Made by a program: the position numbers and the translations under genes
Notes under the pieces: generated by a model
The model's input: the letters and a program-made list of their open reading frames with translations, nothing else
The model's database searches: none
Told to the model about the DNA's origin: nothing
Shown: piece after piece, positions 8,391-59,400 of the stretch
Layout of the letters: the number at the start of each line of letters is the position of its first letter
Numbering within the stretch: the stretch's first letter is position 1
DNA from: Anadara kagoshimensis
Lineage: Eukaryota > Mollusca > Bivalvia > Arcoida > Arcidae
Direction: 5' to 3'
Length of the DNA stretch: 64,000 nucleotides
Assembly (NCBI GenBank): GCA_021292105.1
Contig: CM037860.1
Span: forward strand, 13,038,698-13,102,697

Positions 8391-9129
8391 ACTTTTTTAT
8401 GCCAGTACTGGTGTAAAACATCAGGTTTTGTAATATTGATTTAATTTTGTATGAAAAAGATAAACACTTCCAAGCATTTTGTGTTGTGTAAATACAAATT
8501 GTATAATAAATCAAATAATAAACTTTGCATTTTGATATACTTTAATTCATACTGTTCTATGACTATTACTAGTCCTCTTTTGCCCAATCAATTTGCAGTA
8601 CTTATTCATCTGTAGTTGTGGCATAATCTTCCTAAGTACTACTAGTCTGAAGATATCAACATAGAGAAGTGTGAATGGATTTTGGTGTCTGAAATCAAGA
8701 TTAATTCACTTGTATCTAGCTGTCTATACTTGAAGTTGCATAAATGTGTATTTTGTGTACCCTTGCATTGACCAATGAGAGTTCTTTTATAATTTTTACT
8801 GTGGCATTAACTGTTTTTAAAAACTCATCTGGAGAAGTTCTTAACTATGCCTTTTGAGTCAAGTGGAGTAATAGTGTTTTGTGTCCCAGTCAAGAATATT
8901 TAACCTACATGTACATCAAGGCAGTCTGATCTGATAAATAACTTAGATACCCAGAGAAAATACATTTTTGTCAAGAAAACCGACAAACTTTCTTGCACTA
9001 AGATCTACCCTAATAAAGTTGAGAAGTACTGTGATCTGCTATTCCACACTATAGACCACTGGGGCCCCTTCCTAGTCCATTGACCCACATTTTCAGTTTG
9101 GTGAAAGTAAAAATTACCATGTCTGATCC

Positions 9130-26474: not shown

Positions 26475-29400
26475 ATGGCGACTCCAAGTGCTGTTTTGGC
26501 TGCTGGATGGATTCCTTTTGTTATCGTTTTAGTTGTAAGTATTTGTCACATGTTTTATTATGGTATTAACAAACACTAGGGAGAACACAATATGGATCTG
26601 AATGATTCGATTTCAATTTGCAGTGATGACAAAGTCCCAAGTTGTTTTACCAAAGTGAAAGTGACAACCTGACTATGCAGTCAAACAAAGTTTAGATTTA
26701 AAATTGTTTTATTGCCTCCTCGAACAGATTGTAAATCTGCGGGTAAATCAGAGGGTGAGAAACTACAAATACAAAAATCACAGAAAATACAATAAAATAC
26801 AACATGAAATACATGTACAGTAGTATAAAATACAACCTGAAATGGAGACATATAAAATGCACATGAAATACACATTTCCGTTAATAATGCAAAAATTACA
26901 AGAGAAAACAAATCAACAATTATAGAATGTCATATTAAAACAGTAGTGTAGCCCATTAAAAATGTCCCATAGAAATTCAACTGTATATACGATAAATGTT
27001 CATGTCAAATTCGCGGGAAATAAAAAGTAAACAAACATGTACTTTTAAAGGGAATAAACGATAAGTTACAAAATCATGATTTCAGTCCGTAATTTTCACG
27101 ATCAGATAAATGCTCAATATGTTCTTGTATAATATACAGCGATAAACTCACTCTTTGAGGCGTCTTAACTTGCCGGAAAATATCAAAACTTCAGCTGGAG
27201 GCATAACGCGGCACAACACATTTTTTCATGACGTAATACACTAATAACAGAAATGGAAAACGTATAGACCAGAATCCGGCAACATCACACTCCCCTTCTG
27301 ATTTCTTATGGAAATCACTATTTACATATTACATAGATGATAAAAGTCCAATCAATAAAACACATGAATCAAAGTCCATACTAATATCTCACGTTATGAC
27401 ACTAACTCCGACAAATTATAACACAGTCTTTTGAATCTTCAAAAGTAAACAGTCTCTAATTTTCACAGAACTTGCTTTCAGATCACAAAAAATTACAAAG
27501 TTAAAGTCTCTAATACACAATAATCCTTTGAAGTAAATCCCATGAATGATCACAAATGTAACAGTCTCTGTATGATTTCAAAAGTCCTTAAATGTTCACT
27601 TAGTCTGAATATATACAAAAAAGTCCCTAAATGTTCACTAACTATTCACTGAAAGCAAATGTTAACTAAATGTCCTTGAATGTTCATAAAAAATTTCACT
27701 GGATACAAATGTTCACTAAATGTTCTTGAATGTTCACAAAATGTTCACTAGATACAAATGTTATTAAAGTCTGATTTCTAAACATAATATGGTAATCACT
27801 GGTTAATCAGGGGAACAAGTTTATGAACAGGTCTGACATAATGTACATTGTTATGGTCTCTATTTACACGAATCTCAACTTCTCGAACATGTCCATCACT
27901 TGAGGGAAAAATCCTATTAACAACAGCAATAGGCCACATATTCCGAGGTAAATCAACATCTTTCATCAACACGACGTCACCTACTTTCAAATCTGGCTGA
28001 TCTGACATCCACTTGCGTCTCGGTTGGAGTGAAGATATGAACTCCTTTTCCCATCTCTTCCAGAACATGTTCGCTAGAACCTGAACATGTCTCCACTGTG
28101 ACCTAAACATTTCCTTAGGCTCTAACAACGGAATGGTTTCTGGCAGCTTCTGCGTCTTATGGGTAAGTATCATATTTGGCGACAAGATGACAGGATTCTC
28201 AGAATCTTCTGTTATAGGCGTCAATGGTCGAGAATTGACAATAGCACATACTTCTGCAAGAAATGTTGTGAGTGTCTCATGAGTCAAAGTCTTAACACTG
28301 TTTTGAAGAAGAACACCATCCAATATCCTTCGAACAATACCAATCATACGTTCCCAGGATCCACCAAAATGGGAGGCATAAGGTGGATTGAACAGCCACA
28401 TGGAATTGTTGTCCTGAAGAAACTTTTGTACTGGTTGACCTTCAACAAACTGGTGCAACATCTTCAATTCGTTAACAGCGCCTACGAAATTGGTACCTCG
28501 GTCGGAGCGAAACTGGCGAACAGGACCTCTGATGGAAAGGAATCGTCTGAGCGCATTTATGAAGGATGAAGTGCTGAGTTCCTCTACGACCTCTATGTGG
28601 ATTCCTCTTGAGACCAAGCAAGTGAATAAGATGGCCCAACGTTTATTTCTAGCAACTCCTCCACGTGTGCGTCTGGCAGTTACTTCCCATGGACCAAAAG
28701 TATCAACGCCTACAAATGTGAAAGGCGGTCCTGGCGTAAGTCGATCTTCGGGCAGACTAGCCATCTTTTGTCCACAAAATGAGCCTCGTAGCTTGCGACA
28801 GATCACACAATGGTGTATTTCGGATGAAATAAGACGTTTTGCACCGATTATCCAGTATCCTGCTGTGCGTACTTTGCCTTCTGTCAGATGACGGCCTTGA
28901 TGGTACACGGCATTGTGGCAATGACGTATAAGTAATATTGCAATGTGCGACTTCTTCGGTATGATAATAGGGTGAACATTCAAGTCAATTAACTTCTTAG
29001 CTGCTGCAAGCCTTCCACCAACACGTAGTAGACCATTCGAGTCTAGAAATGGTGACAGTGAAATGATACTGCTATTCTTCGGAATAGGAAGTCCTCTGGA
29101 GATACAACTGATTTCTGCTGCAAAAGCATCCTCTTGTACAACTTCAATATCAAGGTCTTGCTCGATCTGAGGAATCTGTATTCATGGACTCAGCAGTAAT
29201 GCCAACAGCTGTTGGAGTGTTTGCATGGAACCTTCTTTGATTTCATGATGTGCTGTAGTATGGATATAGCATTCACAAGACTTAACCATTTCGAAAATTT
29301 CTCAAAGCGCGGCAGTATGGATCCTGTTGCTTATCTGAAGAATTGATCTTGTTGACGTTTACAGTGGACCTGACTTCTTTATCTGTGTCTGGTGACATCA

Positions 29401-32400
29401 AAGGAAACTCCAAACTCATCGACTGGGCTAACAGGTGTATTCTGACGGAGTAAACTTGGTCCGGTATCCACATGCTGTTTGAAGAGTCTGAGCATCGAAC
29501 GAAGTAGCTGAATCTGCTGGATTATGATCTTGATACATGGCGCCAGTGGTCTGGTCCGTTAAAAGATCTGATTCGATTGACTCGATTAGCGACGTAAACA
29601 TGAAATCTTCTGACATCATTTGCTATATAACCTAATGCAATTAGGCTATCTGTGTAGAACCAAAATTGTCTCTATCTAATCCAAGCTGCTCCTTGATAAA
29701 CTCTGCAATTTCGACGGCCATTACAGCAGAACATAACTCCAAACGTGGTATGGTGTGCCCGTGCGATGGAGCTACCTTAGCCTTTCCAAACAGGAAACTG
29801 ACATCACTGGACATCTCGCTGTTCCACACCTTTAGGTAAGCTACAGCTGCTATGGCATCTTTGGAGGCATCTGAAAATATGTGGACTTGGACTCTAGTAG
29901 CTTTCATAACAGAGAACTTGCTATACATACGAGGAATATTAAGTTCTTCAAGGAAGTGAAGTGACTCCACCCAGGTAGTCCATCTTGCAGAAATGTGCTG
30001 TCCAGCGGTTCATCCCAATCCATTTTCTTATCCGACATCATCTCTCGAAGCAGCATCTTTCCTTGTATTATAACTGGACATGCGAAGCCAAGTGGATCAA
30101 ACAAACTGTTGATTGTGGAAAGGACTCCTCTGCGGGTGAATGGTTTAGAATCCACATTGATCTTGAAGACAAAGACGTCATCGTTGATGTTCCAAGATAA
30201 ACCAAGACTTCTTTGGATTGGCAGGTCATCTTGTCCGATGTCCAGATTCTTCAAATCAGTCGCAAGATCGTCCTTTTCAAACTGCAACATGACCGCTTTA
30301 GAATTGGAAGCTATCTTATGCAATCGAAGTTGTCCGCCTTCCTTCAAGTCTCTTTGTGTCCTTTTCATCAGATCTACAGCTATATCATCACTAGGGCAGC
30401 TAATTAATCCATCATCAACATAGAAGTTGTTGCAAACAAAATCTTTAACATCTGGATCACTATCATCTACAGAGCGACGAAGTCCATATGTAGCCACAGC
30501 TGGAGATGGGCGATTACCAAAAACATGGACGGTCATTCGGTACTCAATCAAAGGTCTGGAAAGATCATTCTCTGGATGCCAAAGAAAACGAAGATAGTCT
30601 CGGTGTTCTGCATGCACTCTAAAATTGTGAAACATTTGCTCTATATCTGCTGTTAATGCAACTTGTTCACGGCGAAATCTTAACAGGATACCTTGGAGAT
30701 TGTTGTAAATCTGGCCCCTTGAGTAGTACTTCATTTAGTGATACTCCTTTGAAACATGCAGACGAATCAAAAACCATGCGGATGGAGTCTTTCTTCTTAC
30801 GGTGGTAAACTCCGAACATAGGTAAGTACCATCTTTCACTGGATTCTGGAATAGAGGGTGCTATCTCTGCATGTCCTCGTTCAAAAATTTTAGTCATGAA
30901 CTGTGATGCATGTTCCTTCTTGACTGGATTACGGCGTAAGCTACGGTCGAGAGATTCGGCACGGTTCACGGCTTGCTGTATATTGTTGGGTAATGGAGGT
31001 CTGTTGGAACGAAATGGTAATGGTGCTGTCCATCTTCCATCTGGATCCTTTTTGAAACCTGAATCCATGACATCTAAAAATCTCTGGTCATCAATTGAAA
31101 TGGCAGTCTTCTCGTCTAGTTCTGTCTTTACAAAGATGTTATCTTTCACAATAAGTTTACTGTCACAAGGCTCGAACAAGGAAGGACGACCATTTCCCAA
31201 TAAGCAGTTTTGTTGACTGAAATATGTCAGGTACATGAAGCTCATCTAGACAAACTGAACCAATGATAACCCAGCCAAGTGGAAGCTTCTGTGCATAAGG
31301 AACTCCACCACTACAATAACGCTGATCTTCGACAACATGTGCAGCAATCAGGTCTCTCCCAATAAGGATTTCAATATCAGCATCATTGATAAGCTCAGGA
31401 ATGGCATCTACAATATCATGCAGGTGAGTATATTGCCCAGCAATATGAGGTGACGGGATCTCATCTCTGTTATTTGGCAATTCGGCACATTCTATAAGAG
31501 TAGGTAGCTTGAAGACACAGTTCCTGTCGATAGATTCAATGACAAATCCCGGAGCTCGCCTTCCACTTGTAACAACTTTACCGGAACAGGAAGCTAAAGT
31601 ATACGCATATGAAGGTCCATTCTGGTTAAAAGCATCAAAAAATGAACTGGATGCCAGGCAATGGTTGCTTTGGTCGTCAATCATAGCATACACTATCCTA
31701 GATTGTTGTTGCAAACCTTCTGGATACACTCTAGCGGGACTATCTTGGCGCATGACTTGCTGGTTCCAGTGGTACTTCCACAAACTTGGGTACATGTAGA
31801 TGAAATTTTCTTTGTAGCAGTCTCCCCTTCATGGAGTTGTATACTATCATTGAGAGCTGTAGGAGTATTAGGATGCGAGGACGATGAAGTTTTCTTTGTT
31901 GGTATCTCCCCTTCATGAACTCTTGTACTGTCATGGAGCGCTGTGGGATGTGACGATGCTTTACAAACACTGCATTGGATGGTGGCTTTACAATTTCTAG
32001 CGCGATGTTTCTTCGGACCACAACATCTAATACAAATTCCATTGGCCATAATAAACTTCTTTCTATCCTGCATCGATTTCTGACGAAAACCATTACATTC
32101 ATTCAATAAATGTCTTGTGTGATGAAATGGACATCTAGCAGGATCAGATTCACCAGTCGGTTGTGTTTCTGTCTTCTTAGATACAACAGGTATGGTTGAC
32201 GAAACATTACGGTATGTGCGTGGTTGCTGCACTCTCTCTGTGTCATAGTTGAAACTCGGGTCATTTTTCATCTTGGCGAGATCCTTGATGAATTTAACAA
32301 AGAAAGTGAATGGTGGATACACTGCAGTTTCACGTTTCTTGTACTTGGTAGCTTCAACGGTCCATTTCTCTTGTAAGTTAGGAGGTAGCTTAGCAACAAG

Positions 32401-35400
32401 TGAGTTGATACCAGTGGGAATCAAAATATCCAAACATAACTGCATATTGGGGTTGCCTTTTCACAGAATCAATCTCAGCAGCCAGGTCTGCAAGATTATA
32501 CAGCCGTTTGTAGTCTTGGTTGGTAATTCTAGGGAATGTAGCAATGTTCCGCTTGAGGCTACTCTCAATCAGCTCTGGAGATCCAAACCGTTCTTCAAGT
32601 CGTTCCCAAACCAACTTAAGTGCTGTCACTGGATCTGCAGCATTACATTTCCGTATCGTGGCTGCTTGCCTTGAGGAGTCTGTACCAAGCCAACGTATAA
32701 GTAATCAAGCTCTTCCGACGGTGTAGCATCAAGCTCTGACATTACGGACTGGAACGTTAATTTCCACGCTAGATAAAATGTAGGATTGTCATCATACTTG
32801 GTAATCCTCGATAAAATAAGGTCTTTCTTCAGAAGGAACTTGGTGATGTCTGCAATAGGTTCACTCTTTCTGTCATCTGAAGACTGTCTGTTGTCATAAT
32901 GGCTGTTGGAACAATAGGGATTGTTGACAAGATGTGAAGATCTGGCAGCATTAGAACGTAGAGCAGGCTTTTCAAACAGGAAAGGTGAAGCATATGGATT
33001 CAATTGAGACTGCACTTCTGTAGGACCTTGAGGTGTCGAATCTAGCTGGAAGTTTGGCTTAGGCAACTGCAGTTGAGATGACGTAAAATGTGGCTTGAAA
33101 GTAGACCGAGCAGTAGTTGTCTGTGTCGGACAATGTTGACGAGGGAACTCATGTTGTTCAGATACATAGGTGTGTGTAATAACAGGTCGACTGGGTGTCT
33201 GAACCGGAAGTGGCTGTGCTATGGCTGGCTGTTGTTGAGTCATGTTGACATCAGCAGTTGACAAAGGTAAAACTGTCTTAAGTTGAGTTGTCACAACGGG
33301 GTCAGGGATGCAATCCTCCATACTGTTAGTTAATTCTAGCTCAGGATCTCTTAGGTGTGAAATTGCATCAGGTAGACTGTTGACATATTCTTGGGTTCTG
33401 GCATGTTGTTTACTAGACGTCACTGAACCAAGTTCTAATTTAACTGAAGTATTCTGGATGGCATCAATTTCTGCTTGTTTAATTTCAATGTCTTGTTCAA
33501 TCTTAAGAGCCTTCAACTTGGTTTCAAGTTCCACTTTCTGTCGGAGAATGTCAGCTTCTGCATTCAAAAACTTTTTCTTAATAACAGTGGCATCTAACTT
33601 GGCTTGTTTACGTTCGACACTGGATATTTTAGATCTTGAAGATGAAGATTTTGTTGAGCGACCATCTTTGCTTTTAGGTGGGGGGTTCAGCAATAAGTTC
33701 AGTCTTTTGAATGCCATGTCAACTTTACAATCCACTGTTCCCTTGATCAACTTGTGGGCTGCTTCTTCGCCATCACTTTCTGTGGTCCGCACTGTTCGCA
33801 AGTAATCAACAAAGTTCGTGGAAAGTTCACAGTATGCTCTGTAGCACGAATCAATCATCTTGTGCACTGACAAAAGCGCATCTGAATCAGTCTTAACTTC
33901 ATCAATGTGTGAGATGCCTGCATTGAGATCATTTTTAACCTCACGCAGCTGGCTGGCATACTTACTGACTCGAGACTGGAACTCGTCCTTGGCAGGACTG
34001 GTCAGTATGCGTTGTCTGGAAGACCTTCTAACTTCAGGTTCTGTTGATGAATGGATACTCATCATGAAAAGCAGCTGAACTTCTGTGATAATTCTGAAGC
34101 TGGATGTCGATAAATCTCACTGGGCTGGAGCTGGACGTCAAGATATATCATTGGTCTAGAGCTGGACACTAAGCCTTCTTACTGGGCAGGAGCTTGACAC
34201 CAAGATTTATCACTGGGCAGGAACTGGACACCAAGATTTCTCACTATGCAGTCAAACAAAGTTTAGATATAAAATTGTTTTATTGCCTCCTCGAACAGAT
34301 TGTAAATCTGCGGGTAAATCAGAGGGTGAGAAACTACAAATACAAAAATCACAGAAAATACAATAAAATACAACATGAAATACATGTACAGTAGTATAAA
34401 ATACAACCTGAAATCGGAGACATAAAATGCACATGAAATACACATTTCCGTTAATAATGCAAAAATTACAAGAGAAAACAAATCAACAAATTATAGAATG
34501 TCATATTCAAAACAGTAGTGTAGCCCATTAAAAATGTCCCATAGAAATTCAACTGTATGTATACGATAAATGTTCATGTCAAATTTCGCGGGAAATAAAA
34601 AGTAAACAAACATGTACTTTTAAAGGGAATAAACGATAAGTTACAAAATCATGATTTCAGTCCGTAATTTTCACGATCAGATAAATGCTCAATATGTTCT
34701 TGTATAATATACAGCGATAAACTCACTCTTTGAGGCGTCTAACTTGCCGGAAAATATCAAAACTTCAGCTGGAGGCATAACGCGGCACAACACATTTTTT
34801 CATGACGTAATACACTAATAACAGAAATGGAAAACGTATAGACCAGAATCCGGCAACATCACACTGACTGTCTGAGTCTCAGGGTTCAATTTCACAATTA
34901 AAGGGTTCACTGTAAATTACTGACAATGAATCATTAATAAAAAGCTGTCCCATAACAACTACATGTATTGATATTCAGAACAGCCACACTGTTCTACAAC
35001 AACAATTGATACTCGAAACAGTCACACTGATCTACAACAACTGATGTTCAGAACAGTCACACTGTTCTACAACAACAATTGATATCTGAAACAGCCATAC
35101 TGTCCCACAACAACTGGTGTTCAGAACAGTCGCATGTTCCATAATAACAGCATATGTTTAGAACACTCACACTGTTCTACAACAACAACTGATGTTCAGA
35201 ACAGTCACACTGTTCTACAACAGATGATGTTTTGAACAGTCACACTGTTCCACAACAACAACTGATGTATAGAACAGCCACATTGCTCTACAACAACAGA
35301 TGATGTTTAGAACAGTCACATTGCAGGGATTTATCAAGGGCCTATTTAGGGCCGAAATTCGGCCCCATTCCCAATGGAAAAAACATAGATTTTTCCCCAA

Positions 35401-38400
35401 AATCATCTGAGAAAATTCCCTATTAGAAAATTGTGTTGTTTTTAAATGAAAACGAGAGCAAATTTTGAAAAAAAACCCAATCACATAACAGCAAGTATTA
35501 CACAAAGTGCCGCAAGACGGAGGATGCAAAATCAAATAAAAAGATTCTAGAAATGACACCTGCAAAGCAAGATGAAAATACCACTTCTACATCAAAGGCT
35601 TCCAAGACTGTAAGTAAACCGACTTCTGACATAGATATTGAAAGTAAACTGGCAAAATCCGATGATGTCGAAGTTTTCCCAAAATGAGCAAAAAGTTGAT
35701 AGTTTTTCCCAATTTTTAGTTTAGGGCCTTTTCCCAAAAGACCCTGATAAATACCTGCATTGTTCCACAACAATTGATGTTCAGATCAGTCATGCTGTCC
35801 CATATCAACAATTGATGTTCAGAACAGACACATTGTTCCACAATAACTTATATTCAGAACAGTCACACTGTTCAACAACAAAATCTATTGTTCAGAACAT
35901 TAACCATGTCCGACAGATAGATAGTATAACACTGGAATAGAGAATTCTAGTAAATTTTTATATATATAAATGTTTAGGTATGTTTGTCACATTATTTGAT
36001 GTGTTTGTATTTACATATATTAGTAGAAAAGCCATTTTGTATTTCCATACTGTCCAGTTCTCAAGATAAAAAATCAGATAATGACTTGCATCAGGTTATA
36101 AAGTGTGACTATTAAAAGATTACCGGTAATGATAGATAGGTTACTTGATTACGGTAGTATGAATTTCTAGGATATGGAGATGGGGAAAATTGTAGAATTG
36201 AAAAATTTTAGCCTTTTAATATATTATACGTTATATGTGTTACAAATTGGACATGAACTGGTAAGTTTGTTTTTGAATATATTAATGTGTTTTGATTTCT
36301 ATTACAGCTGGTGTTACTGTTTTGTGTTTTGATTTCTATTACAGCTGGTGTTACTGTTTTGTGTTTTGTTTTCTATTACAGCTGGTGTTACTGTTTTGTG
36401 TTTTGTTTTCTATTACAGCTGGTGTTACTGTTTTGTGTTTTGTTTTCTATTACAGCTGGTGTTACTGTTTTGTGTTTTGTTTTCTATTACAGCTGGTGTT
36501 ACTATTTTGTGTTTTGTTTTCTATTACAGCTGGTGTTACTGTTTTGTGTTTTGTTTTCTATTACAGCTGGTGTTACTGTTTTGTGTTTTGATTTCTATTA
36601 CAGCTGGTGTTACTGTTTTGTGTTTTGTTTTCTATTACAGCTGATGTTACTGTTTTGTGTTTTGTTTTCTATTACAGCTGGTGTTACTGTTTTGTGTTTT
36701 GTTTTCTATTACAGCTGGTGTTACTGTTTTGTGTTTTGTTTTCTATTACAGCTGGTGTTACTGTTTTGTGTTTTGTTTTCTATTACAGCTGGTGTTACTG
36801 TTTTGTGTTTTGTTTTCTATTACAGCTGGTGTTACTATTTTGTGTTTTGTTTTCTATTACAGCTGGTGTTACTGTTTTATGTTTTGATTTCTATTACAGC
36901 TGGTGTTACTGTTTTGTGTTTTGTTTTTTTTCTATTACAGCTGGTGTTACTATTTTGTGTTTTGTTTTCTATTACAGCTGGTGTTACTATTTTGTGTTTT
37001 GTTTTCTATTACAGCTGGTGTTACTATTTTGTGTTTTGTTTTCTATTACAGCTGGTGTTACTATTATGTGTTTTGTTTTCTATTACAGCTGGTGTTACTG
37101 TTTTGTGTTTTGTATTCTATTACAGCTGGTGTTACTGTTTTGTGTTTTGATTTCTATTACAGCTGGTGTTACTGTTTTGTGTTTTGTTTTCTATTACAGC
37201 TGGTGTTACTGTTTTGTGTTTTGTTTTCTATTACAGCTGGTGTTACTGTTTTGTGTTTTGATTTCTATTACAGCTGGTGTTACTGTTTTGTGTTTTGATT
37301 TCTATTACAGCTGGTGTTACTGTTTTGTTTTGATTTCTATTACAGCTGGTGTTACTGTTTTGTGTTTTGTTTTCTATTACAGCTGGTGTTACTGTTTTGT
37401 GTTTTGATTTCTATTACACCTGGTGTTACTGTTTTGTGTTTTGTTTTCTATTACAGCTGATGTTACTGTTTTGTGTTTTGTTTTCTATTACAGCTGGTGT
37501 TATTATTTTGTGTTTTGTTTTCTATTACAGCTGGTGTTACTGTTTTGTGTTTTGTTTTCTATTACAGCTGGTGTTACTGTTTTGTGTTTTGTTTTCTACT
37601 ACAGCTGGTGTTACTGTTTTGTGTTTTGTTTTCTATTACAGCTGGTGTTACTGTTTTGTGTTTTGTTTTCTATTACAGCTGGTGTTACTGTTTTATGTTT
37701 TGATTTCTATTACAGCTGGTGTTACTGTTTTGTGTTTTGTTTTCTATTACAGCTGGTGTTACTATTTTGTGTTTTGTTTTCTATTACAGCTGGTGTTACT
37801 GTTTTGTGTTTTGTTTTCTATTACAGCTGGTGTTACTGTTTTGTGTTTTGTTTTCTATTACAGCTGGTGTTACTGTTTTGTGTTTTGTTTTCTATTACAG
37901 CTGGTGTTACTGTTTTGTGTTTTGTTTTCTATTACAGCTGGTGTTACTGTTTTGTGTTTTGTTTTCTATTACAGCTGGTGTTACTGTTTTATGTTTTGAT
38001 TTCTATTACAGCTGGTGTTACTGTTTTGTGTTTTGTTTTCTATTACAGCTGGTGTTACTATTTTGTGTTTTGTTTTCTATTACAGCTGGTGTTACTGTTT
38101 TGTGTTTTGTTTTCTATTACAGCTGGTGTTACTATTTTGTGTTTTGTTTTCTATTACAGCTGGTGTTACTATTATGTGTTTTGTTTTCTATTACAGCTGG
38201 TGTTACTGTTTTGTGTTTTGTTTTCTATTACAGCTGGTGTTACTGTTTTGTGTTTTGTTTTCTATTACAGCTGGTGTTACTGTTTTGTGTTTTGTTTTCT
38301 ATTACAGCTGGTGTTACTGTTTTGTGTTTTGTTTTCTATTACAGCTGGTGTTACTGTTTTGTGTTTTGTTTTCTATTACAGCTGGTGTTACTGTTTTGTG

Positions 38401-41400
38401 TTTTGTTTTCTATTACAGCTGGTGTTACTGTTTTATGTTTTGATTTCTATTACAGCTGGTGTTACTGTTTTGTGTTTTGTTTTCTATTACAGCTGGTGTT
38501 ACTATTTTGTGTTTTGTTTTCTATTACAGCTGGTGTTACTGTTTTGTGTTTTGTTTTCTATTACAGCTGGTGTTACTATTTTGTGTTTTGTTTTCTATTA
38601 CAGCTGGTGTTACTATTATGTGTTTTGTTTTCTATTACAGCTGGTGTTACTGTTTTGTGTTTTGTTTTCTATTACAGCTGGTGTTACTGTTTTGTGTTTT
38701 GATTTCTATTACAGCTGGTGTTACTATTTTGTGTTTTGTTTTCTATTACAGCTGGTGTTACTGTTTTGTGTTTTGTTTTCTATTACAGCTGGTGTTACTG
38801 TTTTGTGTTTTGATTTCTATTACAGCTGGTGTTACTGTTTTGTGTTTTGATTTCTATTACAGCTGGTGTTACTGTTTTGTGTTTTGTTTTCTATTACAGC
38901 TGGTGTTACTGTTTTGTGTTTTGATTTCTATTACAGCTGGTGTTACTGTTTTGTGTTTTGTTTTCTATTACAGCTGGTGTTACTGTTTTGTGTTTTGTTT
39001 TCTATTACAGCTGGTGTTACTGTTTTGTGTTTTGTTTTCTATTACAGCTGGTGTTACTGTTTTGTGTTTTGATTTCTATTACAACTGGTGTTACTGTTTT
39101 GTGTTCTGTTTTCTATTACAGCTGGTGTTACTGTTTTGTGTTTTGTTTTCTATTACAGCTGGTGTTACTGTTTTGTGTTTTGTTTTCTATTACAGCTGGT
39201 GTTACTATTTTGTGTTTTGTTTTCTATTACAGCTGGTGTTACTGTTTTGTGTTTTGTTTTCTATTACAGCCGGTGTTACTGTTTTGTGTTTTGATTTCTA
39301 TTACAGCTGGTGTTACTGTTTTGTGTTTTGATTTCTTTTACAGCTGGTGTTACTGTTTTGTGTTTTGTTTTCTATTACAGCTGGTGTTACTGTTTTGTGT
39401 TTTGATTTCTATTACAGCTGGTGTTACTGTTTTGTGTTTTGATTTCTTTTACAGCTGGTGTTACTGTTTTGTGTTTTGTTTTCTATTACAGCTGGTGTTA
39501 CTGTTTTGTGTTTTGTTTTCTATTACAGCTGGTGTTACTGTTTTGTGTTTTGTTTTCTATTACAGCTGGTGTTACTGTTTTGTGTTTTGTTTTCTATTAC
39601 AGCTGGTGTTACTGTTTTGTGTTTTGATTTCTTTTACAGCTGGTGTTACTGTTTTGTGTTTTGTTTTCTATTACAGCTGGTGTTACTGTTTTGTGTTTTG
39701 TTTTCTATTACAGCTGGTGTTACTGTTTTATGTTTTGATTTCTATTACAGCTGGTGTTACTGTTTTGTGTTTTGATTTCTTTTACAGCTGGTGTTACTGT
39801 TTTGTGTTTTGTTTTCTATTACAGCTGGTGTTACTGTTTTGTGTTTTGTTTTCTATTACAGCTGGTGTTACTATTTTGTGTTTTGTTTTCTATTACAGCT
39901 GGTGTTACTGTTTTGTGTTTTGTTTTCTATTACAGCTGGTGTTACTGTTTTGTGTTTTGTTTTCTACTACAGCTGGTGTTACTGTTTTGTGTTTTGTTTT
40001 CTATTACAGCTGGTGTTACTGTTTTGTGTTTTGTTTTCTATTACAGCTGGTGTTACTGTTTTATGTTTTGATTTCTATTACAGCTGGTGTTACTGTTTTG
40101 TGTTTTGTTTTCTATTACAGCTGGTGTTACTATTTTGTGTTTTGTTTTCTATTGCAGCTGGTGTTACTGTTTTGTGTTTTGTTTTCTATTACAGCTGGTG
40201 TTACTGTTTTGTGTTTTGTTTTCTATTACAGCTGGTGTTACTGTTTTGTGTTTTGTTTTCTATTACAGCTGGTGTTACTGTTTTGTGTTTTGTTTTCTAT
40301 TACAGCTGGTGTTACTGTTTTGTGTTTTGTTTTCTATTACAGCTGGTGTTACTGTTTTATGTTTTGATTTCTATTACAGCTGGTGTTACTGTTTTGTGTT
40401 TTGTTTTCTATTACAGCTGGTGTTACTATTTTGTGTTTTGTTTTCTATTACAGCTGGTGTTACTGTTTTGTGTTTTGTTTTCTATTACAGCTGGTGTTAC
40501 TATTTTGTGTTTTGTTTTCTATTACAGCTGGTGTTACTATTATGTGTTTTGTTTTCTATTACAGCTGGTGTTACTGTTTTGTGTTTTGTTTTCTATTACA
40601 GCTGGTGTTACTGTTTTGTGTTTTGTTTTCTATTACAGCTGGTGTTACTGTTTTGTGTTTTGTTTTCTATTACAGCTGGTGTTACTGTTTTGTGTTTTGT
40701 TTTCTATTACAGCTGGTGTTACTGTTTTGTGTTTTGTTTTCTATTACAGCTGGTGTTACTGTTTTGTGTTTTGTTTTCTATTATAGCTGGTGTTACTGTT
40801 TTGTGTTTTGTTTTCTATTACAGCTGGTGTTACTGTTTTGTGTTTTGATTTCTATTACAGCTGGTGTTACTGTTTTGTGTTTTGTTTTCTATTACAGCTG
40901 GTGTTACTGTTTTGTGTTTTGTTTTCTATTACAGCTGGTGTTACTGTTTTATGTTTTGATTTCTATTACAGCTGGTGTTACTGTTTTGTGTTTTGTTTTT
41001 TTTCTATTACAGCTGGTGTTACTATTTTGTGTTTTATTTTCTATTACAGCTGGTGTTACTATTTTGTGTTTTGTTTTCTATTACAGCTGGTGTTACTATT
41101 TTGTGTTTTGTTTTCTATTACAGCTGGTGTTACTATTATGTGTTTTGTTTTCTATTACAGCTGGTGTTACTGTTTTGTGTTTTGTATTCTATTACAGCTG
41201 GTGTTACTGTTTTGTGTTTTGATTTCTATTACAGCTGGTGTTACTGTTTTGTGTTTTGTTTTCTATTACAGCTGGTGTTACTGTTTTGTGTTTTGTTTTC
41301 TATTACAGCTGGTGTTACTGTTTTGTGTTTTGATTTCTATTACAGCTGGTGTTACTGTTTTGTGTTTTGATTTCTATTACAGCTGGTGTTACTGTTTTGT

Positions 41401-44400
41401 GTTTTGATTTCTATTACAGCTGGTGTTACTGTTTTGTGTTTTGTTTTCTATTACAGCTGGTGTTACTGTTTTGTGTTTTGATTTCTATTACACCTGGTGT
41501 TACTGTTTTGTGTTTTGTTTTCTATTACAGCTGATGTTACTGTTTTGTGTTTTGTTTTCTATTACAGCTGGTGTTATTATTTTGTGTTTTGTTTTCTATT
41601 ACAGCTGGTGTTACTGTTTTGTGTTTTGTTTTCTATTACAGCTGGTGTTACTGTTTTGTGTTTTGTTTTCTACTACAGCTGGTGTTACTGTTTTGTGTTT
41701 TGTTTTCTATTACAGCTGGTGTTACTGTTTTGTGTTTTGTTTTCTATTACAGCTGGTGTTACTGTTTTATGTTTTGATTTCTATTACAGCTGGTGTTACT
41801 GTTTTGTGTTTTGTTTTCTATTACAGCTGGTGTTACTATTTTGTGTTTTGTTTTCTATTACAGCTGGTGTTACTGTTTTGTGTTTTGTTTTCTATTACAG
41901 CTGGTGTTACTGTTTTGTGTTTTGTTTTCTATTACAGCTGGTGTTACTGTTTTGTGTTTTGTTTTCTATTACAGCTGGTGTTACTGTTTTGTGTTTTGTT
42001 TTCTATTACAGCTGGTGTTACTGTTTTGTGTTTTGTTTTCTATTACAGCTGGTGTTACTGTTTTATGTTTTGATTTCTATTACAGCTGGTGTTACTGTTT
42101 TGTGTTTTGTTTTCTATTACAGCTGGTGTTACTATTTTGTGTTTTGTTTTCTATTACAGCTGGTGTTACTGTTTTGTGTTTTGTTTTCTATTACAGCTGG
42201 TGTTACTATTTTGTGTTTTGTTTTCTATTACAGCTGGTGTTACTATTATGTGTTTTGTTTTCTATTACAGCTGGTGTTACTGTTTTGTGTTTTGTTTTCT
42301 ATTACAGCTGGTGTTACTGTTTTGTGTTTTGTTTTCTATTACAGCTGGTGTTACTGTTTTGTGTTTTGTTTTCTATTACAGCTGGTGTTACTGTTTTGTG
42401 TTTTGTTTTCTATTACAGCTGGTGTTACTGTTTTGTGTTTTGTTTTCTATTACAGCTGGTGTTACTGTTTTGTGTTTTGTTTTCTATTACAGCTGGTGTT
42501 ACTGTTTTATGTTTTGATTTCTATTACAGCTGGTGTTACTGTTTTGTGTTTTGTTTTCTATTACAGCTGGTGTTACTATTTTGTGTTTTGTTTTCTATTA
42601 CAGCTGGTGTTACTGTTTTGTGTTTTGTTTTCTATTACAGCTGGTGTTACTATTTTGTGTTTTGTTTTCTATTACAGCTGGTGTTACTATTATGTGTTTT
42701 GTTTTCTATTACAGCTGGTGTTACTGTTTTGTGTTTTGTTTTCTATTACAGCTGGTGTTACTGTTTTGTGTTTTGATTTCTATTACAGCTGGTGTTACTA
42801 TTTTGTGTTTTGTTTTCTATTACAGCTGGTGTTACTGTTTTGTGTTTTGTTTTATTACAGCTGGTGTTACTGTTTTGTGTTTTGATTTCTATTACAGCTG
42901 GTGTTACTGTTTTGTGTTTTGATTTCTATTACAGCTGGTGTTACTGTTTTGTGTTTTGATTTCTATTACAGCTGGTGTTACTGTTTTGTGTTTTGTTTTC
43001 TATTACAGCTGGTGTTACTGTTTTGTGTTTTGATTTCTATTACAGCTGGTGTTACTGTTTTGTGTTTTGTTTTCTATTACAGCTGGTGTTACTGTTTTGT
43101 GTTTTGTTTTCTATTACAGCTGGTGTTACTGTTTTGTGTTTTGTTTTCTATTACAGCTGGTGTTACTGTTTTGTGTTTTGATTTCTATTACAACTGGTGT
43201 TACTGTTTTGTGTTCTGTTTTCTATTACAGCTGGTGTTACTGTTTTGTGTTTTGTTTTCTATTACAGCTGGTGTTACTGTTTTGTGTTTTGTTTTCTATT
43301 ACAGCTGGTGTTACTATTTTGTGTTTTGTTTTCTATTACAGCTGGTGTTACTGTTTTGTGTTTTGTTTTCTATTACAGCCGGTGTTACTGTTTTGTGTTT
43401 TGATTTCTATTACAGCTGGTGTTACTGTTTTGTGTTTTGATTTCTTTTACAGCTGGTGTTACTGTTTTGTGTTTTGTTTTCTATTACAGCTGGTGTTACT
43501 GTTTTGTGTTTTGATTTCTATTACAGCTGGTGTTACTGTTTTGTGTTTTGATTTCTTTTACAGCTGGTGTTACTGTTTTGTGTTTTGTTTTCTATTACAG
43601 CTGGTGTTACTGTTTTGTGTTTTGTTTTCTATTACAGCTGGTGTTACTGTTTTGTGTTTTGTTTTCTATTACAGCTGGTGTTACTGTTTTGTGTTTTGTT
43701 TTCTATTACAGCTGGTGTTACTGTTTTGTGTTTTGATTTCTTTTACAGCTGGTGTTACTGTTTTGTGTTTTGTTTTCTATTACAGCTGGTGTTACTGTTT
43801 TGTGTTTTGTTTTCTATTACAGCTGGTGTTACTGTTTTATGTTTTGATTTCTATTACAGCTGGTGTTACTGTTTTGTGTTTTGATTTCTTTTACAGCTGG
43901 TGTTACTGTTTTGTGTTTTGTTTTCTATTACAGCTGGTGTTACTGTTTTGTGTTTTGTTTTCTATTACAGCTGGTGTTACTATTTTGTGTTTTGTTTTCT
44001 ATTACAGCTGGTGTTACTGTTTTGTGTTTTGTTTTCTATTACAGCTGGTGTTACTGTTTTGTGTTTTGTTTTCTACTACAGCTGGTGTTACTGTTTTGTG
44101 TTTTGTTTTCTATTACAGCTGGTGTTACTGTTTTGTGTTTTTTTTCTATTACAGCTGGTGTTACTGTTTTATGTTTTGATTTCTATTACAGCTGGTGTTA
44201 CTGTTTTGTGTTTTGTTTTCTATTACAGCTGGTGTTACTATTTTGTGTTTTGTTTTCTATTGCAGCTGGTGTTACTGTTTTGTGTTTTGTTTTCTATTAC
44301 AGCTGGTGTTACTGTTTTGTGTTTTGTTTTCTATTACAGCTGGTGTTACTGTTTTGTGTTTTGTTTTCTATTACAGCTGGTGTTACTGTTTTGTGTTTTG

Positions 44401-47400
44401 TTTTCTATTACAGCTGGTGTTACTGTTTTGTGTTTTGTTTTCTATTACAGCTGGTGTTACTGTTTTATGTTTTGATTTCTATTACAGCTGGTGTTACTGT
44501 TTTGTGTTTTGTTTTCTATTACAGCTGGTGTTACTATTTTGTGTTTTGTTTTCTATTACAGCTGGTGTTACTGTTTTGTGTTTTGTTTTCTATTACAGCT
44601 GGTGTTACTATTTTGTGTTTTGTTTTCTATTACAGCTGGTGTTACTATTATGTGTTTTGTTTTCTATTACAGCTGGTGTTACTGTTTTGTGTTTTGTTTT
44701 CTATTACAGCTGGTGTTACTGTTTTGTGTTTTGTTTTCTATTACAGCTGGTGTTACTGTTTTGTGTTTTGTTTTCTATTACAGCTGGTGTTACTGTTTTG
44801 TGTTTTGTTTTCTATTACAGCTGGTGTTACTGTTTTGTGTTTTGTTTTCTATTACAGCTGGTGTTACTGTTTTGTGTTTTGTTTTCTATTATAGCTGGTG
44901 TTACTGTTTTGTGTTTTGTTTTCTATTACAGCTGGTGTTACTGTTTTGTGTTTTGATTTCTATTACAGCTGGTGTTACTGTTTTGTGTTTTGTTTTCTAT
45001 TACAGCTGGTGTTACTGTTTTGTGTTTTGTTTTCTATTACAGCTGGTGTTACTGTTTTGTGTTTTGTTTTCTATTACAGCTGGTGTTACTATTTTGTGTT
45101 TTGTTTTCTATTACAGCTGGTGTTACTGTTTTGTGTTTTGTTTTCTATTACAGCCGGTGTTACTGTTTTGTGTTTTGTTTTCTATTACAGCTGGTGTTAC
45201 TGTTTTGTGTTTTGATTTCTATTACAGCTGGTGTTACTGTTTTTGTGTTTTGTTTTCTATTACAGCTGGTGTTACTGTTTTGTGTTTTGTTTTCTATTAC
45301 AGCTGGTGTTACTGTTTTATGTTTTGATTTCTATTACAGCTGGTGTTACTGTTTTGTGTTTTGTTTTCTATTACAGCTGGTGTTACTGTTTTGTGTTTTG
45401 TTTTCTATTACAGCTGGTGTTACTGTTTTGTGTTTTGTTTTCTATTACAGCTGGTGTTACTGTTTTGTGTTTTGTTTTCTATTACAGCTGGTGTTACTGT
45501 TTTGTGTTTTGTTTTCTATTACAGCTGGTGTTACTGTTTTGTGTTTTGTTTTCTATTACAGCTGGTGTTACTGTTTTGTGTTTTGTTTTCTATTACAGCT
45601 GGTGTTACTGTTTTGTGTTTTGTTTTCTATTACAGCTGGTGTTACTGTTTTGTGTTTTGTTTTCTATTATAGCTGGTGTTACTGTTTTGTGTTTTGTTTT
45701 CTATTACAGCTGGTGTTACTGTTTTGTGTTTTGATTTCTATTACAGCTGGTGTTACTGTTTTGTGTTTTGTTTTCTATTACAGCTGGTGTTACTGTTTTG
45801 TGTTTTGTTTTCTATTACAGCTGGTGTTACTGTTTTGTGTTTTGTTTTCTATTACAGCTGGTGTTACTATTTTGTGTTTTGTTTTCTATTACAGCTGGTG
45901 TTACTGTTTTGTGTTTTGTTTTCTATTACAGCCGGTGTTACTGTTTTGTGTTTTGTTTTCTATTACAGCTGGTGTTACTGTTTTGTGTTTTGATTTCTAT
46001 TACAGCTGGTGTTACTGTTTTTGTGTTTTGTTTTCTATTACAGCTGGTGTTACTATTTTCTACAGTATATATAAAGTACTTTATGAGTAAATATGACAGT
46101 GCAGTCAGTAGTACTATATCATCTATAGTAGCTCTGAATGTCACGCTCTTCACTACTGCTTTAGTACCAGTGGATGTATTCTTGGTGTCCTATATGAAAA
46201 CAAGTGATGGACATTTTAAGGTAGGTTTGAAATCTGTTTATATATCCTTGATCAGTCTGTCTGTCTATCCTGGTTAAATGTTTAATAAATCTGTCTATCT
46301 TTTTGCATGTCTATATACACTGTACCCACCTATCTATCCATCTGTCCATCCATCCTACTTTCCTTTCTTGCTCCATGACCATCCAGCTGACTGACCACAA
46401 AATAAACTGTTCAAAGATCATTGCACTCAGCAGTAGACCAAATATGCAATTGGAGGTCTAGGAAATAATATTATATTAATATATATATAAATATATATAT
46501 ATAAATTATATGATATATATATTATGTATCACAAAATTAAAACTATATTTTACTCAATTTGTCATAGATGGTATAGCTAATAGTCCTATATTTTCTTCAG
46601 CTTCTGTTGTTTTTGCCTAATTGTAAACAAAGGAACATTTATTACAGTTCTGCCTCTATAGTCATTTCTGCACTTGTTGTTATTTTAGCCTTTTTTAAAA
46701 AAATCAACCCATTCATTAGAACTTTCTCATCTAATGCTATGACTGAATATCGAACCTGGCCCTTCTGGGTGAATAGTGAGCATTCTTCTGCAGAGTTAAA
46801 ACATCTGTACCAGAAAGTCTAAGTAAATCACTCTATTATCAGATTATGTCTTCAATATATAACACTAAAACACCATGACTAGCTCTGCCCAACTAGGTTA
46901 ATTAGATCTTCTGTGATAGACATGAAATGTTTTACAAAATGCCCAATATGTTATTTAATATCCTCATTTAACATTTCAGACTTGGTAATTATAGAAAAGC
47001 CAAGTCTGTTTTTGTTTCAAAACAAAGTCATTTGTAATATAGTATATTTAACTTTATTTTTATAGGATTGGGCCAATGATTCCAGTACCAGACAGTCCAT
47101 AGAGAGTTCTGTGTCTATAGCTTACTATAGTATGTATCAGATAAAGTATTAACTGTTGAAATCACTGTGATCGTGACGGTGAATTAAGCTTGATTTCCAT
47201 AGAACATCAACTGAGCTTGAATAAAGATTGATATTTTTCACTTACTTGTACCTAGTTGTAACAGGAAATCTGTATGCACATCCATGATTAGGGTATAATA
47301 TTCCTGCACAGAGTAAAACATTGGCGCTCTAGGGATTTAACATGTTGAAAAACCAGGCAAAAAATGATGGATCCTGTTGCACATATGATGTAAATTGTCA

Positions 47401-53400: not shown

Positions 53401-56400
53401 TGATGTGACATGAGGAGATATGATGATGATGTGACACGAGGAGATATGATAATGATGGTGATGAAATGAGTTCTGTTGATGCCGATGATGATAATGATTA
53501 TCGTGATGAAGAAGATTATAGTGATGGTGGTGATGAAAATAAGCTCTGTTGCTATGAATGATGATGATGACGATGTAACTTGACGAACTATGATGATGAT
53601 TATGATGGTGACATGAGTTCTGTTGCTACCGATGATGATGATGGTGGCAATGATGACATTCAGTACTGCTGAGCACTGTCGATAGTATGATGATGATGAT
53701 GATGTTGATGGTGATGACATTCAGTTCTGCTGCTGTCGATGATGATAATAATTCACGATGATGATGATGACAAAGCCAATGTCTTCATGCTGATGATGAT
53801 GATGATGACATTCAGTACTGCTGCTGCTGATAATGATGATGATTATGTGACACGAAGAGCTATAATGATGATGTGACCATATTAATGATGTAACATGAGG
53901 ATTTCTGAAATTGATTAATATAATGGTGGTGGTGATTGTCATGGCATGGGTTCTACTGCTGCTGCTGCTAATGACGACGACGACGATGATGATGATGATA
54001 TCTTCATGTTGATGATCAAAATGTGATATGAGGAGTGATAATGATAATGATGGTGGTGATTACAGATCCAGTTTGGGTTTTCTTCCAGTCAACTGCGTTT
54101 TAGTGGAGTTATGCCCCTTTCACTTTGTGAATTTTATCAAAATGATGGTTTGTCTGGACTTTTTTCCGTTACTCTTGAGATATTTCACTCAGATTTGGGG
54201 TCAGGTCTTTAGTAACCTCTCTTGGTTTTTGAAAAATTGAAACTTTATATTTATGCGAATTACTTAGTTTACTCAATTGATAAACATTGCGTGGCATGTC
54301 CATTTTGACCATTGTAACATATTTATATGTTAGAACCTAACAACTTGCATAAAAAGCAGACTTGTTAGAAGCTTCCCGATCACAGTATCTATTATTTGCA
54401 TGATTTTCATTTGTTACTGATTTATTAGACAAATCTCAGTTCCAAGTGCACATTTTTTTTATCAAATTGCTCAGTTTAGCTGATGCTTCAGTACCTTCAG
54501 TACTTTGATTACACCATGTTTTGACACTTTCATTGGAATTAAAATTGGCGGAGTAAGGGAATGGTGCTGTTCTATGCCTCAGTCAAGTTTCTTTCACTTA
54601 TATCAAGGCATCAGGTTTGGGAAACTGCAGAAAACTACCTACATTTTGACACTGTAATGGTACATTTATATCAAACTTCTCACTAGGATTTAGCCAACAT
54701 GAGATGATGTACCACACACACATTTAGTGTTATTGATCAAGGTCACAAGGTCAAATCTTAGTTGGGGGTGGGGTGGGGGGTTGGCTCTCATGAGACAGTT
54801 TTTCTGGTTTGTTTAATTTCTCCTGTTTTCTTTATTGGACAATATATTACTTGTCATTATCTTGATTTCATTTCTACTGACAGAAAATGTCATAAAATCG
54901 ATAGCCAATTTCATCTCATGTCTTTATTTCTATGTATTTTCCAGCTAGAGAAATTTTGTTTTTCTTTTATTGATATTACATTTCTTTTTGTTGTTATCTT
55001 GTAGGCATATGGTATGAGTGCTTTCCCAATGGGTCTTATCAAAGGTCACAGTAGTGCAAAGAAAGAAAGGATGACAGTACAGAGTGAAAGGTCAGAGGTC
55101 AGAGACAGAATCAGCAGGATCAAGGACAAGGTGATAACATAGAGCTTTATGTGGTTTCTAAGTACATAACCTTACATGTTCAGGGTTTATCATATGAAGG
55201 TCAAAGGTCAGGGGTTAGAGACATTCAGTAGGATCAAGTACAAAGTAATAACTTACAGCTTTATGTGATTTTTAAGTACATGACCTTACATGGCTAGAGT
55301 TTATCTTATGAAGGTCAAAGGTCAGGGGTTAGAGACAATCAGTAGGATCAAGTACAAAGTAATAACTTACAGCTTTATGTGATTTTTAAGTACATGACCT
55401 TACATGGTCAGAGTTTATCTTATGAAGGTCAAAGGTCAGGGGTTAGAGACAATCAGTAGGATCAAGTACAAAGTAATAACTTACAGCTTTATGTGATTTT
55501 TAAGTACATGACCTTACATGGCTAGAGTTTATCTTATGAAGGTCAAAGGTCAGGGGTTAGAGACAATCAGTAGGATCAAGTACAAAGTAATAACTTACAG
55601 CTTTATGTGATTTTTAAGTACATGACCTTACATGGCTAGAGTTTATCTTATGAAGGTCAAAGGTCAGGGGTTAGAGACAATCAGTAGGATCAAGTACAAA
55701 GTAATAACTTACAGCTTTATGTGATTTTTAAGTACATGACCTTACATGGTCAGAATTTATCTTATGAAGGTCAAAAGTTAGGAATGTAATCAGTTGAATT
55801 CGACATACCCTGATCTTATGTTACCGTCAACACATGTCTTTGTTTAGCAAAAGGTCAGAAACTGACAGAACCTAAAAAATTACACAAGACTGAATCATGT
55901 TTTATACTAAAATTGAACTGAAGCTTACAGATTGCAATAATTCTTATATAATATAGTAATAAAGAGAAAGATAAACTTTCCATAATCTATCTTCAACATT
56001 GATTAAATTACTTCGATTTTCAGAAAAAAAGGAAATTGTGAAATTAAACATTTTCTTCCACTGTGTAGTAAATAAGTCTAAAATCATATCTGGATATACA
56101 GTATATACAAAAATGTATTGTGATTGCTAAAGATGGATGAAAATACAAGTATTAAAATGGCATCTATTTGAAACAAAAGGTACAGACATGATACAGGTCA
56201 TAGTTGTCACCCAAAAAGTAAATGTTAAAGAACTGACATGAAATTAAATGAATGTGTCTTTTAGGAATATGCATTGCCACTGTATCCAAATTTATCTACA
56301 CACTTTGTTATTTTGCATTACAACATCCTTTGACAAAGCATCCAAATTCCAATGTAGTTTTGTCTGAATAATGAAAACCTGGACAATAATATTACTTATG

Positions 56401-59400
56401 TGTATAGAGTCAGATAATTTGTTAAAAATATTTATAATTTAATCACCATTTAATTTCATATAGAAGTTAGGTATACATCAAAGTCACAGTTCTGACAATC
56501 ATGACATGTACATGTACATAACAATTTGTAATATAAACAATATTGCATCACTTGTGGAGATATATTAGATTGAAACATTAACAGATCCTTGCTTAAATAG
56601 ATCTCTTTCTGTATTTTGAAAAACAGCTATTTTAATTCCGAAAAATTTTATTGACAGTATTCTGGCAAAAACATGTCATCCAGGAATAGAGAGAGAGTAC
56701 AAAATCTAGAGGAATCAGAGAGATTGATGGAAAGAAGAGAACAGCATCTAACATCAAAAGAGACAAGCTGTCTGCAAAAATGTCTGCTGATTTTTAGACC
56801 ATTTGAAGTTGTTTTTGGTGTCGTTTTCTTTCTAGTCACATTGTTGATTTTTGTGTCACTTTTGTTAACAAAGTAAGTTTTTTACAGGCCTGTAAGGGTT
56901 GGGGGACCTAACCATTCCCTTTTTTAAGTCACCCCCAACTAAATAGTTGGGGTGACTTATCGATTTACCCTGTATGAGCTCACCTGGTCAAAGGCCATGT
57001 GAGCTTATGGCATGGCGAGGTGTGCGTGCGTGCGTCAGTAAACATTAATCTTCTCCTCCGAAACTACTGGGCCAACTGAAACCAAATTTGCTATGGAAGG
57101 TCCTTGACAGAGTCAAACTATAGTTTGTTCAAATCATGGCGATTGAATATCCAAGATGGCCGCTGTAACTAAAAATAGACAAAACCTAAAAAAATCTTCT
57201 TCTCTTGAACCAGTCATAGGAGGCAAAAACTGATGTGATATTTGGATTCTACATAGTCTTAACCTTAAAGTTTGTTCATTTCATGAAATTTGGTTGAAAA
57301 ATAGGTTACACGTTTTTGTGTTTAATTTTGCAAAAATTGTAAGATATTTTTAAATTGTTATAACTTGACTGTATGACCAGATAATGACACGGGGTTTTCA
57401 GTTTTGACATATTCTTGTAATTACCTTCAAAATGATGTCAAGGTCAATTATGAAGGTCATGACCTAATTTTTTACCTTTCTATTATTATTTATTATCTCG
57501 AAAACTATAAACTTTTTGTATAGGCATGTATATTGGAATGTTGTTGGTTTTGATGTAACGATCATTTTGATATATAGATTAAGGTCATTGGTTTGAAGGT
57601 CAAGGTCATATATGCGAAAGAAAACTGAAATGGTTCATTATCTTGAAAACTATTAACTTTTTGTATAAGCATGTTTATTAGAATGTTGTAGGTATTGATA
57701 CAACAATAATTTTGATGTATAGAAAAAGGTAATGGGTCCAAAGGTCAAGGTCACAGTAGCAAATCAATACCAAAATAGTTAATTAACTCGAAAACTATAA
57801 ACTTTTTATAGAGGGATGTACATTAGAATATCGTTGGTATTGAAGTAACGGTCATTTTGATGTATAGAAAAAAGTCATGGGTCCAGAGGTCAAGGTCACA
57901 GTAGCAAAACAATACCAAAATTGTCAATTATCTTGAAAACTATAAACATTTTGTATAGGCATGTATATTGGAATGTTGTTGGTTTTGATGTAACGATCAT
58001 TTTGATATATAGATTAAGGTCATTGGTTCAAAGGTCAAGGTCACAGATGCGAAAGAAAACTGAAATAGTTCATTATCTTGAAAACTATAAACTTTTTGTT
58101 TAAGCTTGTATATGAGAATGTTGTAGGTATTGATACAATGATCATTTTAATGTATAGAAAAAGGTCATGAGTCCAAAGGTCAAGGTCACGGTAGCAAAAC
58201 AATACCAAAATGCTTAATTATCTCGAAAACTATAAACTTTTCATAAAGACATGTATATTAGAATATTGTTGGCATTGATGTAACAATTATTTTGATATAT
58301 AGATTAAGGTCATTGGTTCAAAGGTCATGGTCACAGATGCGAAAGAATACTGAAATGGTTCATTATCTTGAAAATTATGAACTTTTTGTATAAGCATGTA
58401 TATTAGAATGTTATAGCTATTGATACAACGATCATTTTGATGTATAGAAAAAGGTCATTGGTCCATAGGTCAAGGTCACGGTAGCAAAGCAATACCAAAA
58501 AGGTTAATTATTTGGAAAACTATAAACTTTTTGTATAGGCATGTGTATTAGAATATTGTTGATATTGATGCAATGATCATTTTAATATATAGATTATGGT
58601 CATTGGTTCGAAGGTTAAGATCACAGATGCAAGTAGCAAGTTTCATAAATATCTAAATAATACACAGAGTTATTGCTCCTTAAGTATAGTATTTATTGTT
58701 TTTGTGCTGTTTACGGCCCAGGTGAGCGATACAGGCCCTATTGGGCCTTTTGTTAGTTTTATTTTTTGATAATATAACATTCAGTTTCTAAGATATGTAA
58801 TTCATTAAAAACTTAATAGATAAATCTGTAAATTGCAGTATAACTTAATATAAATTTTTATTTTATGTTGATGATACAGTTTCCCGAAAATGAAATTTGC
58901 CATTTTATAGATCCTTAACTTTCTTTGTACTACATAAAGCTTTCCATGTTTTCCCTATTTTTTCTTTGTTTCCTAATTGTTGTGTGTTTAATTTTGCAGT
59001 ATTGACAAGGCCATTCCTGGACATAGTCTTGGTTATAAGTATGGTTACGCCTTACCACACAGGACATTACCCAACCCAGTAGACATGGTATTAGTGTTTT
59101 CTCAGAAGGTCAGTAATAATCTGTCATAGTTGAGTTTTCTGTTAGTCCTGAAAACTATATTTAGAATCATTGGTAGGATGGATACCTTGAATTTGCAATT
59201 AGAATTACATGAAAATTGAAATCAGAAGGAACTCATTAAATCGCAACATCAAGTTCAATTTATCCCTATGAAATAATTTAAAAAGGGGAAGCACAGAAAT
59301 TGAAAACTCTTACTCTGCATATTTCTAATTGAATATTAGAAGAGTTGAGTAGTGTTTTATTTCCCAGTCAAAATTCTTTCACTTATATTGAGGTGGTCAG

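Follow-up and report, generated by a model that had tools for sequence, protein, structure and literature searches.

The stretch of DNA analysed here, called the window below, comprises 64,000 nucleotides from the bivalve Anadara kagoshimensis (assembly GCA_021292105.1, contig CM037860.1, positions 13,038,698 to 13,102,697 of the forward strand; coordinates given without a contig or region name count from its first base). It contains the gene LMBRD1, whose product LMBD1 has a role in vitamin-B12 transport, and in the first intron of this gene a tandem array of a 37-bp unit runs up to and into exon 2 (Table 1). Tandem Repeats Finder, applied to the window, gave a period of 37, 264.0 copies and 97% matches for positions 36286-46059; given this length and identity, chance is not an issue. 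The unit carries a polypyrimidine tract, an AG and the first 16 bases of LMBRD1 exon 2 (46044-46059). The first-pass annotation of this DNA had described about 264 copies of a 37-bp unit at the 3' splice site, made of the intron end and the exon start. This description was borne out, except that the annotation had allotted 11 exon bases to the unit and the repeat reaches 16.

Alignment to the 37-bp consensus divided the array into 265 pieces of 25 types, 145 of which equal the consensus (end fragments and one double piece are included in these counts). Between 36286 and 46050 there are 260 AG dinucleotides, and their spacing is 37 in 248 of 259 cases and 74 in four. Because of these four double spacings we conclude that the AG is lost in four of the 264 units, in agreement with the four changed G's found at the AG column of 258 full-length aligned units. 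The AG is kept in the other 260, and most units thus retain the splice signal. It is preceded by GTTTTCTATTAC in 192 of the 260 cases, by GATTTCTATTAC in 44 and by other variants in 24, so the earlier statement that nearly every copy keeps the motif is correct for the AG, whereas the bases before it vary slightly. The edge units have an A at columns 8 and 32, and the same A occurs in 52 and 41, respectively, of the 258 full-length units. The absence of stop codons from the consensus unit was rejected as meaningful, since 17.6% of shuffled units are also stop-free. That the unit might be dispersed satellite DNA was rejected as well: among the matches listed for a two-unit DNA query of the assembly, the counts of which are lower bounds, 119 of 119 lie at the LMBRD1 locus.

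Table 1. LMBRD1 exons, tandem arrays and candidate branch points in the window.
Feature	Position	Strand	Remarks
LMBRD1 exon 1, coding part	26475..26534	+	20 codons, MATPSAVLAAGWIPFVIVLV, then GTAAGT donor; best junction partner of 46044
LMBRD1 intron 1	26535..46043	+	19.5 kb; contains a long terminal repeat (LTR) element and the 37-bp array
TTAAT, likely original branch point (A36285)	36282..36286	+	putative, from the YTNAY consensus
37-bp x 264 array	36286..46059	+	per unit 21 nt of intron end and 16 nt of exon-2 start
Pair of blocks inside the array, about 4.1 kb apart	37326..45058	+	exact shared runs of 1454, 1256 and 917 bp
GTTAC copied from exon-2 codons	46011..46015	+	candidate branch point
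AG of the last unit, the real acceptor of exon 2	46042..46043	+	from exon junction and protein alignment
LMBRD1 exon 2	46044..46220	+	177 nt, 59 codons, then GTAGGT donor
LMBRD1 exon 8	55005..55130	+	donor AAG/GTGATA at 55131
Second array of LMBRD1	55087..55782	+	114 bp x 6.1; 44 nt of exon-8 end and 70 nt of intron start

The peptide encoded by exon 2 matches LMBD1 (24vc_C in the PDB) with an E-value of 1.5e-11. Joining exons 1-12 gave 442 open codons, the last exons being incompletely delimited, and the 442-residue product is 77% identical to a protein of Ylistrum balloti and 76% identical to one of Mizuhopecten yessoensis. These scallop proteins were the nearest among the best 120 listed of 433 homologues, which came from 7997 candidates scored. 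When the product was aligned with 11 relatives, all ten that possess the N-terminus showed no gap at the junction of exon 1 with position 46044; the eleventh (P0021, 96% identical, on a contig of 1485 bases) starts later in the protein. The earlier identification of the gene, and of its real acceptor as that of the last unit, therefore stands. At this boundary a unit is joined to the body of the exon, which matches what we take to be the mark of an authentic boundary in the arrays called mirages, described below. A search with the N-terminal sequence for a transcript from the same species returned eight proteins of 39-61% identity, none of them close enough.

LMBRD1 is single-copy in the 1.115-Gb assembly, where all 11 matches of a protein search fell on this locus. 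The upstream flank of the array had one full-length match. The downstream flank had 64 matches, only one of which, at the LMBRD1 locus, was full-length, and the other 63 represent a dispersed repeat (query bases 661-836). A 40-bp similarity to the upstream flank at C17:36153261-36153300 was dismissed, as the sequence there does not continue into exon 2. With either flank or the protein as query, the assembly thus yielded neither a further allele nor a paralogue differing in copy number.

The choice among the acceptors matters for the product. Of the 259 acceptors upstream of the real one, 245 would bring in a stop within the extension and 11 a later stop, whereas three would leave the frame open and add 25, 62 or 99 mostly hydrophobic residues. 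As 256 of 259 lead to a premature stop, it is important that the last unit be chosen. Under exon definition an acceptor is selected by pairing with the downstream donor of the same exon and, with an exon 2 of 177 nt, only the last few units would then compete. Rules of proximity or scanning would favour the first unit. At 36258-36266, 45 nt ahead of the array's first AG, stands CTG/GTAAGT, a strong donor-like site that could delimit a decoy exon.

The likely original branch-point motif, TTAAT, shares its last base with the start of the array, and its adenosine (A36285) precedes that of the first AG by 21 nt. Hence, this original site was probably left upstream of all the copies, and the last acceptor probably uses an adenosine derived from the exon. 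The first-pass annotation had seen its only branch-point-like motif upstream of the array, which was not supported: each normal unit contains a GTTAC whose A precedes the next AG by about 27-28 nt and which matches YTNAY at four of five places, with the first base mismatched. Furthermore, if its last 8 nt are disregarded, the AG-free stretch leading up to the real acceptor contains a single adenosine, A46014. If this acceptor obeys the AG-exclusion rule, A46014 is therefore the sole candidate, and its branch adenosine would have been copied from coding sequence as part of GTTAC.

The array at exon 2 is accompanied by others of the same kind. At exon 8 of LMBRD1 the second array spans the donor side, with the real donor in the first unit and AAA/GTAATA kept in five of five further full copies. 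The first unit matches the others at 95-98 of 116 columns, while the others match among themselves at 110-114 of 114; the inner units have clearly been homogenised and the edge unit left out. If the donor of a further copy were used, the reading frame would be closed by a TAG three codons past the start of the intron. Among the candidates scored, the 114-bp unit was found solely at this exon. Acceptor-spanning arrays also precede a myosin exon at two loci on contig C11 (L027 3058-3555 and L029 3003-3787). Their units of 94-97 bp contain TATATTACAG/ATTAA and about 60 exon bases, and the arrays have five (L027) and eight (L029) copies including the real one, which comes last. Here every choice of an upstream acceptor meets stops in all three frames. 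The two loci are related, as their longest flank matches are about 86% identical.

These myosin arrays belong to a survey of 40 regions (194,006 bases, 81 exon matches) out of 77 regions with 196 myosin and dynein exon matches, in which match ends approximate exon ends and the profile search would miss short exon pieces such as 16 nt. Seven rows resulted. Two are real exon edges inside arrays, both at the related myosin loci, four are the ends of two partial exon copies in the same arrays, and one (L034) misses a two-copy repeat by 11 bases. Tandem repeats with a period of at least 10 cover 9.7% of the surveyed bases, and only two real exon edges lie inside arrays, which hints that exon edges mostly exclude arrays of this type.

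A block comparison along exact diagonals within the 37-bp array revealed the pair of blocks about 4.1 kb apart, which represents either a recent unequal exchange or a duplication in the assembly. The AG columns were hit by two of 16 distinct single-base changes, some of which may be ancestral states, against an expectation of 0.86. Hence, no purifying selection on the AG is visible within the array, and selection on the acceptor motifs was discarded as an explanation. Homogenisation would account for the retained motif, and the earlier suggestion that it alone could preserve the motif fits these counts. Two near-identical records of open reading frames from another species, P0130 and P0131 (contigs of 1,232,809 and 151,283 bases), run from the end of the intron into exon 2, and the exon-start repeat was not seen in the 24 codons that precede the exon there. 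The array is therefore not common to their species.

The first-pass annotation knew of no described satellite of this kind, and here the literature corrects it. Tandem repeats across exon-intron boundaries, termed mirages, have been reported in the amphioxus globin genes BflGb6 and BflGb9 and in Adh3 (PMC3087553), a TnC mirage and similar repeats in PGBD5 followed (PMC3902484), and a variable number tandem repeat (VNTR) of this type is known from human ABCA7 (PMC5954066). We therefore file the LMBRD1 array under a known, if rarely noticed, kind. What is new is how large it is on the acceptor side, the geometry of its branch point and the recurrence of such arrays in a bivalve. As far as the portions of these papers considered here go, the amphioxus units likewise span the boundary, carry splice signals, occur at either exon edge, are homogenised inside and leave the real boundary at the exon side (PMC3087553, PMC3902484). 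They are much shorter arrays, however: BflGb6, an acceptor-side case, has six and three units of 150-160 bp on two haplotypes, and reverse-transcription polymerase chain reaction (RT-PCR) suggests regular splicing (PMC3087553), as opposed to the 264 copies of a 37-bp unit in this bivalve gene, where the original branch point apparently does not form part of the unit. Amphioxus mirages are reported to vary in length and to leave splicing undisturbed, whereas the LMBRD1 array is known from one assembly sequence.

The ABCA7 VNTR in intron 18 is similar in size to the LMBRD1 array and also spans a boundary. Its 25-bp unit starts with the GT of the exon-18 donor, and the number of units ranges from about 12 to 427, the longest array measuring 10,678 bp; retention of one unit is described, and exon skipping increases with length (PMC5954066). 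Effects on splicing and expression have been measured there, and being on the donor side it is nearer in kind to the exon-8 array than to the acceptor array. The minisatellite of IFI6 (6-16), according to papers that cite the original work, resembles the LMBRD1 array in that its repeat units serve as splice sites of one gene, but these are donors, and downstream units are used in the mRNA. A duplicated segment across intron 1/exon 2, with its acceptor, has been described in potato RdRp (PMC4974935), and human internal tandem repeats at exon-intron boundaries can form introns (PMC2812944); in the relevant parts of both reports a new intron arises, whereas the LMBRD1 copies enlarge an existing one. 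The literature searched, which largely leaves subscription papers uncovered, yielded no mollusc case of a boundary-spanning array; an intronic 27-bp minisatellite in a TSSK1-like gene of abalone is not described as boundary-spanning in the part of the report considered (PMC6905558).

Taken together, we consider it likely that the array is a very large minisatellite of the mirage type, which grew by slippage or unequal exchange and is tolerated because the exon-proximal copy is used. From the anatomy of the locus we infer the following course. A 37-bp segment across the exon-2 acceptor would have been duplicated in tandem. Slippage or unequal exchange would then have multiplied the copies and kept them alike, the recent duplication of a block of about 4.1 kb being part of this process. 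The extra copies, being on the intron side, would be spliced out with intron 1. The gene would survive through the copy joined to the exon body, which can pair by exon definition with the exon-2 donor 177 nt downstream, and this working acceptor probably uses the copied GTTAC adenosine, the original branch point having probably been left upstream. Such a reading is based on the array itself and the make-up of its unit, on the other boundary-spanning arrays at LMBRD1 exon 8 and the two myosin loci, on the published arrays with the amphioxus RT-PCR results, and on the gap-free junction of the last unit, the single gene copy, the block duplication and the lack of visible selection on the AG. Several points weigh against it. 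The first unit is the acceptor nearest to the exon-1 donor and has the better branch-point match, so rules of proximity or scanning predict mis-splicing; ABCA7 shows, in the part of the report used, that boundary-spanning arrays can disturb splicing (PMC5954066); and length variation between individuals, a hallmark of mirages, was not seen in an assembly with a single copy of the locus.

The array could be real and its length partly an artefact of assembly, the blocks about 4.1 kb apart being falsely duplicated or derived from two alleles that were joined. The long exact runs shared by the blocks would fit this, as would the many loci found in duplicate on a single contig, at distances of 0.2-2.6 Mb, a pattern expected from uncollapsed haplotypes or duplications. 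Since the flanks are unduplicated, with one full-length match each, and unequal exchange yields the same block pattern, we regard such an artefact as rather unlikely. A damaged allele, in which the array blocks correct splicing and the functional LMBRD1 allele is outside the assembly, appears highly improbable to us: the array may hinder splicing and one haplotype of the locus is assembled, but the joined exons 1-12 are open over their 442 codons and closely resemble the scallop proteins.

Two other possibilities assign the upstream acceptors a use. Some units near the exon might give LMBD1 isoforms with the 25, 62 or 99 added residues, as the frame stays open through the joined exons for three of the 259 acceptors. 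However, none of the ten relatives with the N-terminus has residues added at the junction, and a search with the array-encoded peptide gave two matches among the candidates scored, both to exon 2 only, which leaves little likelihood for such isoforms. Alternatively, the array might be a regulatory splicing decoy of tunable length, whose roughly 260 acceptors bind U2AF/U2 and divert exon 1 to non-productive splicing. Most of these acceptors would have a branch adenosine from exon-2 codons, and array length would set LMBRD1 output and the dose of LMBD1. The premature stop expected from 256 of 259 upstream acceptors speaks for this, and so does the ABCA7 VNTR, the length of which is related inversely to expression and directly to exon skipping in the portion of the report used (PMC5954066). 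Nevertheless, the AG inside the array bears no sign of selection, the records P0130 and P0131 lack the repeat before exon 2, and amphioxus mirages are reported, in the parts covered, as not disturbing splicing (PMC3087553, PMC3902484). We find both the decoy and the dose effect quite improbable. If the decoy were real, bivalve genomes would recurrently owe variation in expression to arrays at exon edges.

The locus puts the choice of a 3' splice site to an extreme test in nature: a single exon of a conserved gene present in one copy is preceded by about 260 acceptors that hardly differ from one another, the upstream acceptors are mostly frame-breaking, and the branch point is probably forced to come from coding sequence. 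As boundary-spanning arrays occur in this bivalve at several genes and at both exon edges, their origin and tolerance can be tested by comparison.

Other repeats were noticed in the course of this work. Intron 1 contains an LTR retroelement at 26669-34865, mainly on the minus strand and BEL/Pao-like by the reading of its open frames; the identity between its LTR-like ends, at 26669-27291 and at 34240-34865, is 98.3%. A roughly 200-bp inverted repeat around a short insert (about 25540-25755 and 25975-26185, by eye) resembles the ends of a DNA transposon. The loci present twice on one contig, at distances of about 0.2-2.6 Mb, are on C1, C5, C6, C9, C13, C16 and C18, and are uncollapsed haplotypes or segmental duplications. 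On C2, at 37.37-37.48 Mb, kinase matches are clustered, 19 of them with an equal top score and several about 1.84 kb apart, as in a tandem array of kinase genes. Judging by their consensus, the window's 145-bp arrays at 16954-18000 and 57492-58630 appear to belong to one family and to be inverted relative to each other, and region L025 has an array of the same period at 3429-6427. Finally, a 67-bp array of 8.4 copies at 7837-8394 of the window carries CTTACAG in most of its units and is tied to no known exon.

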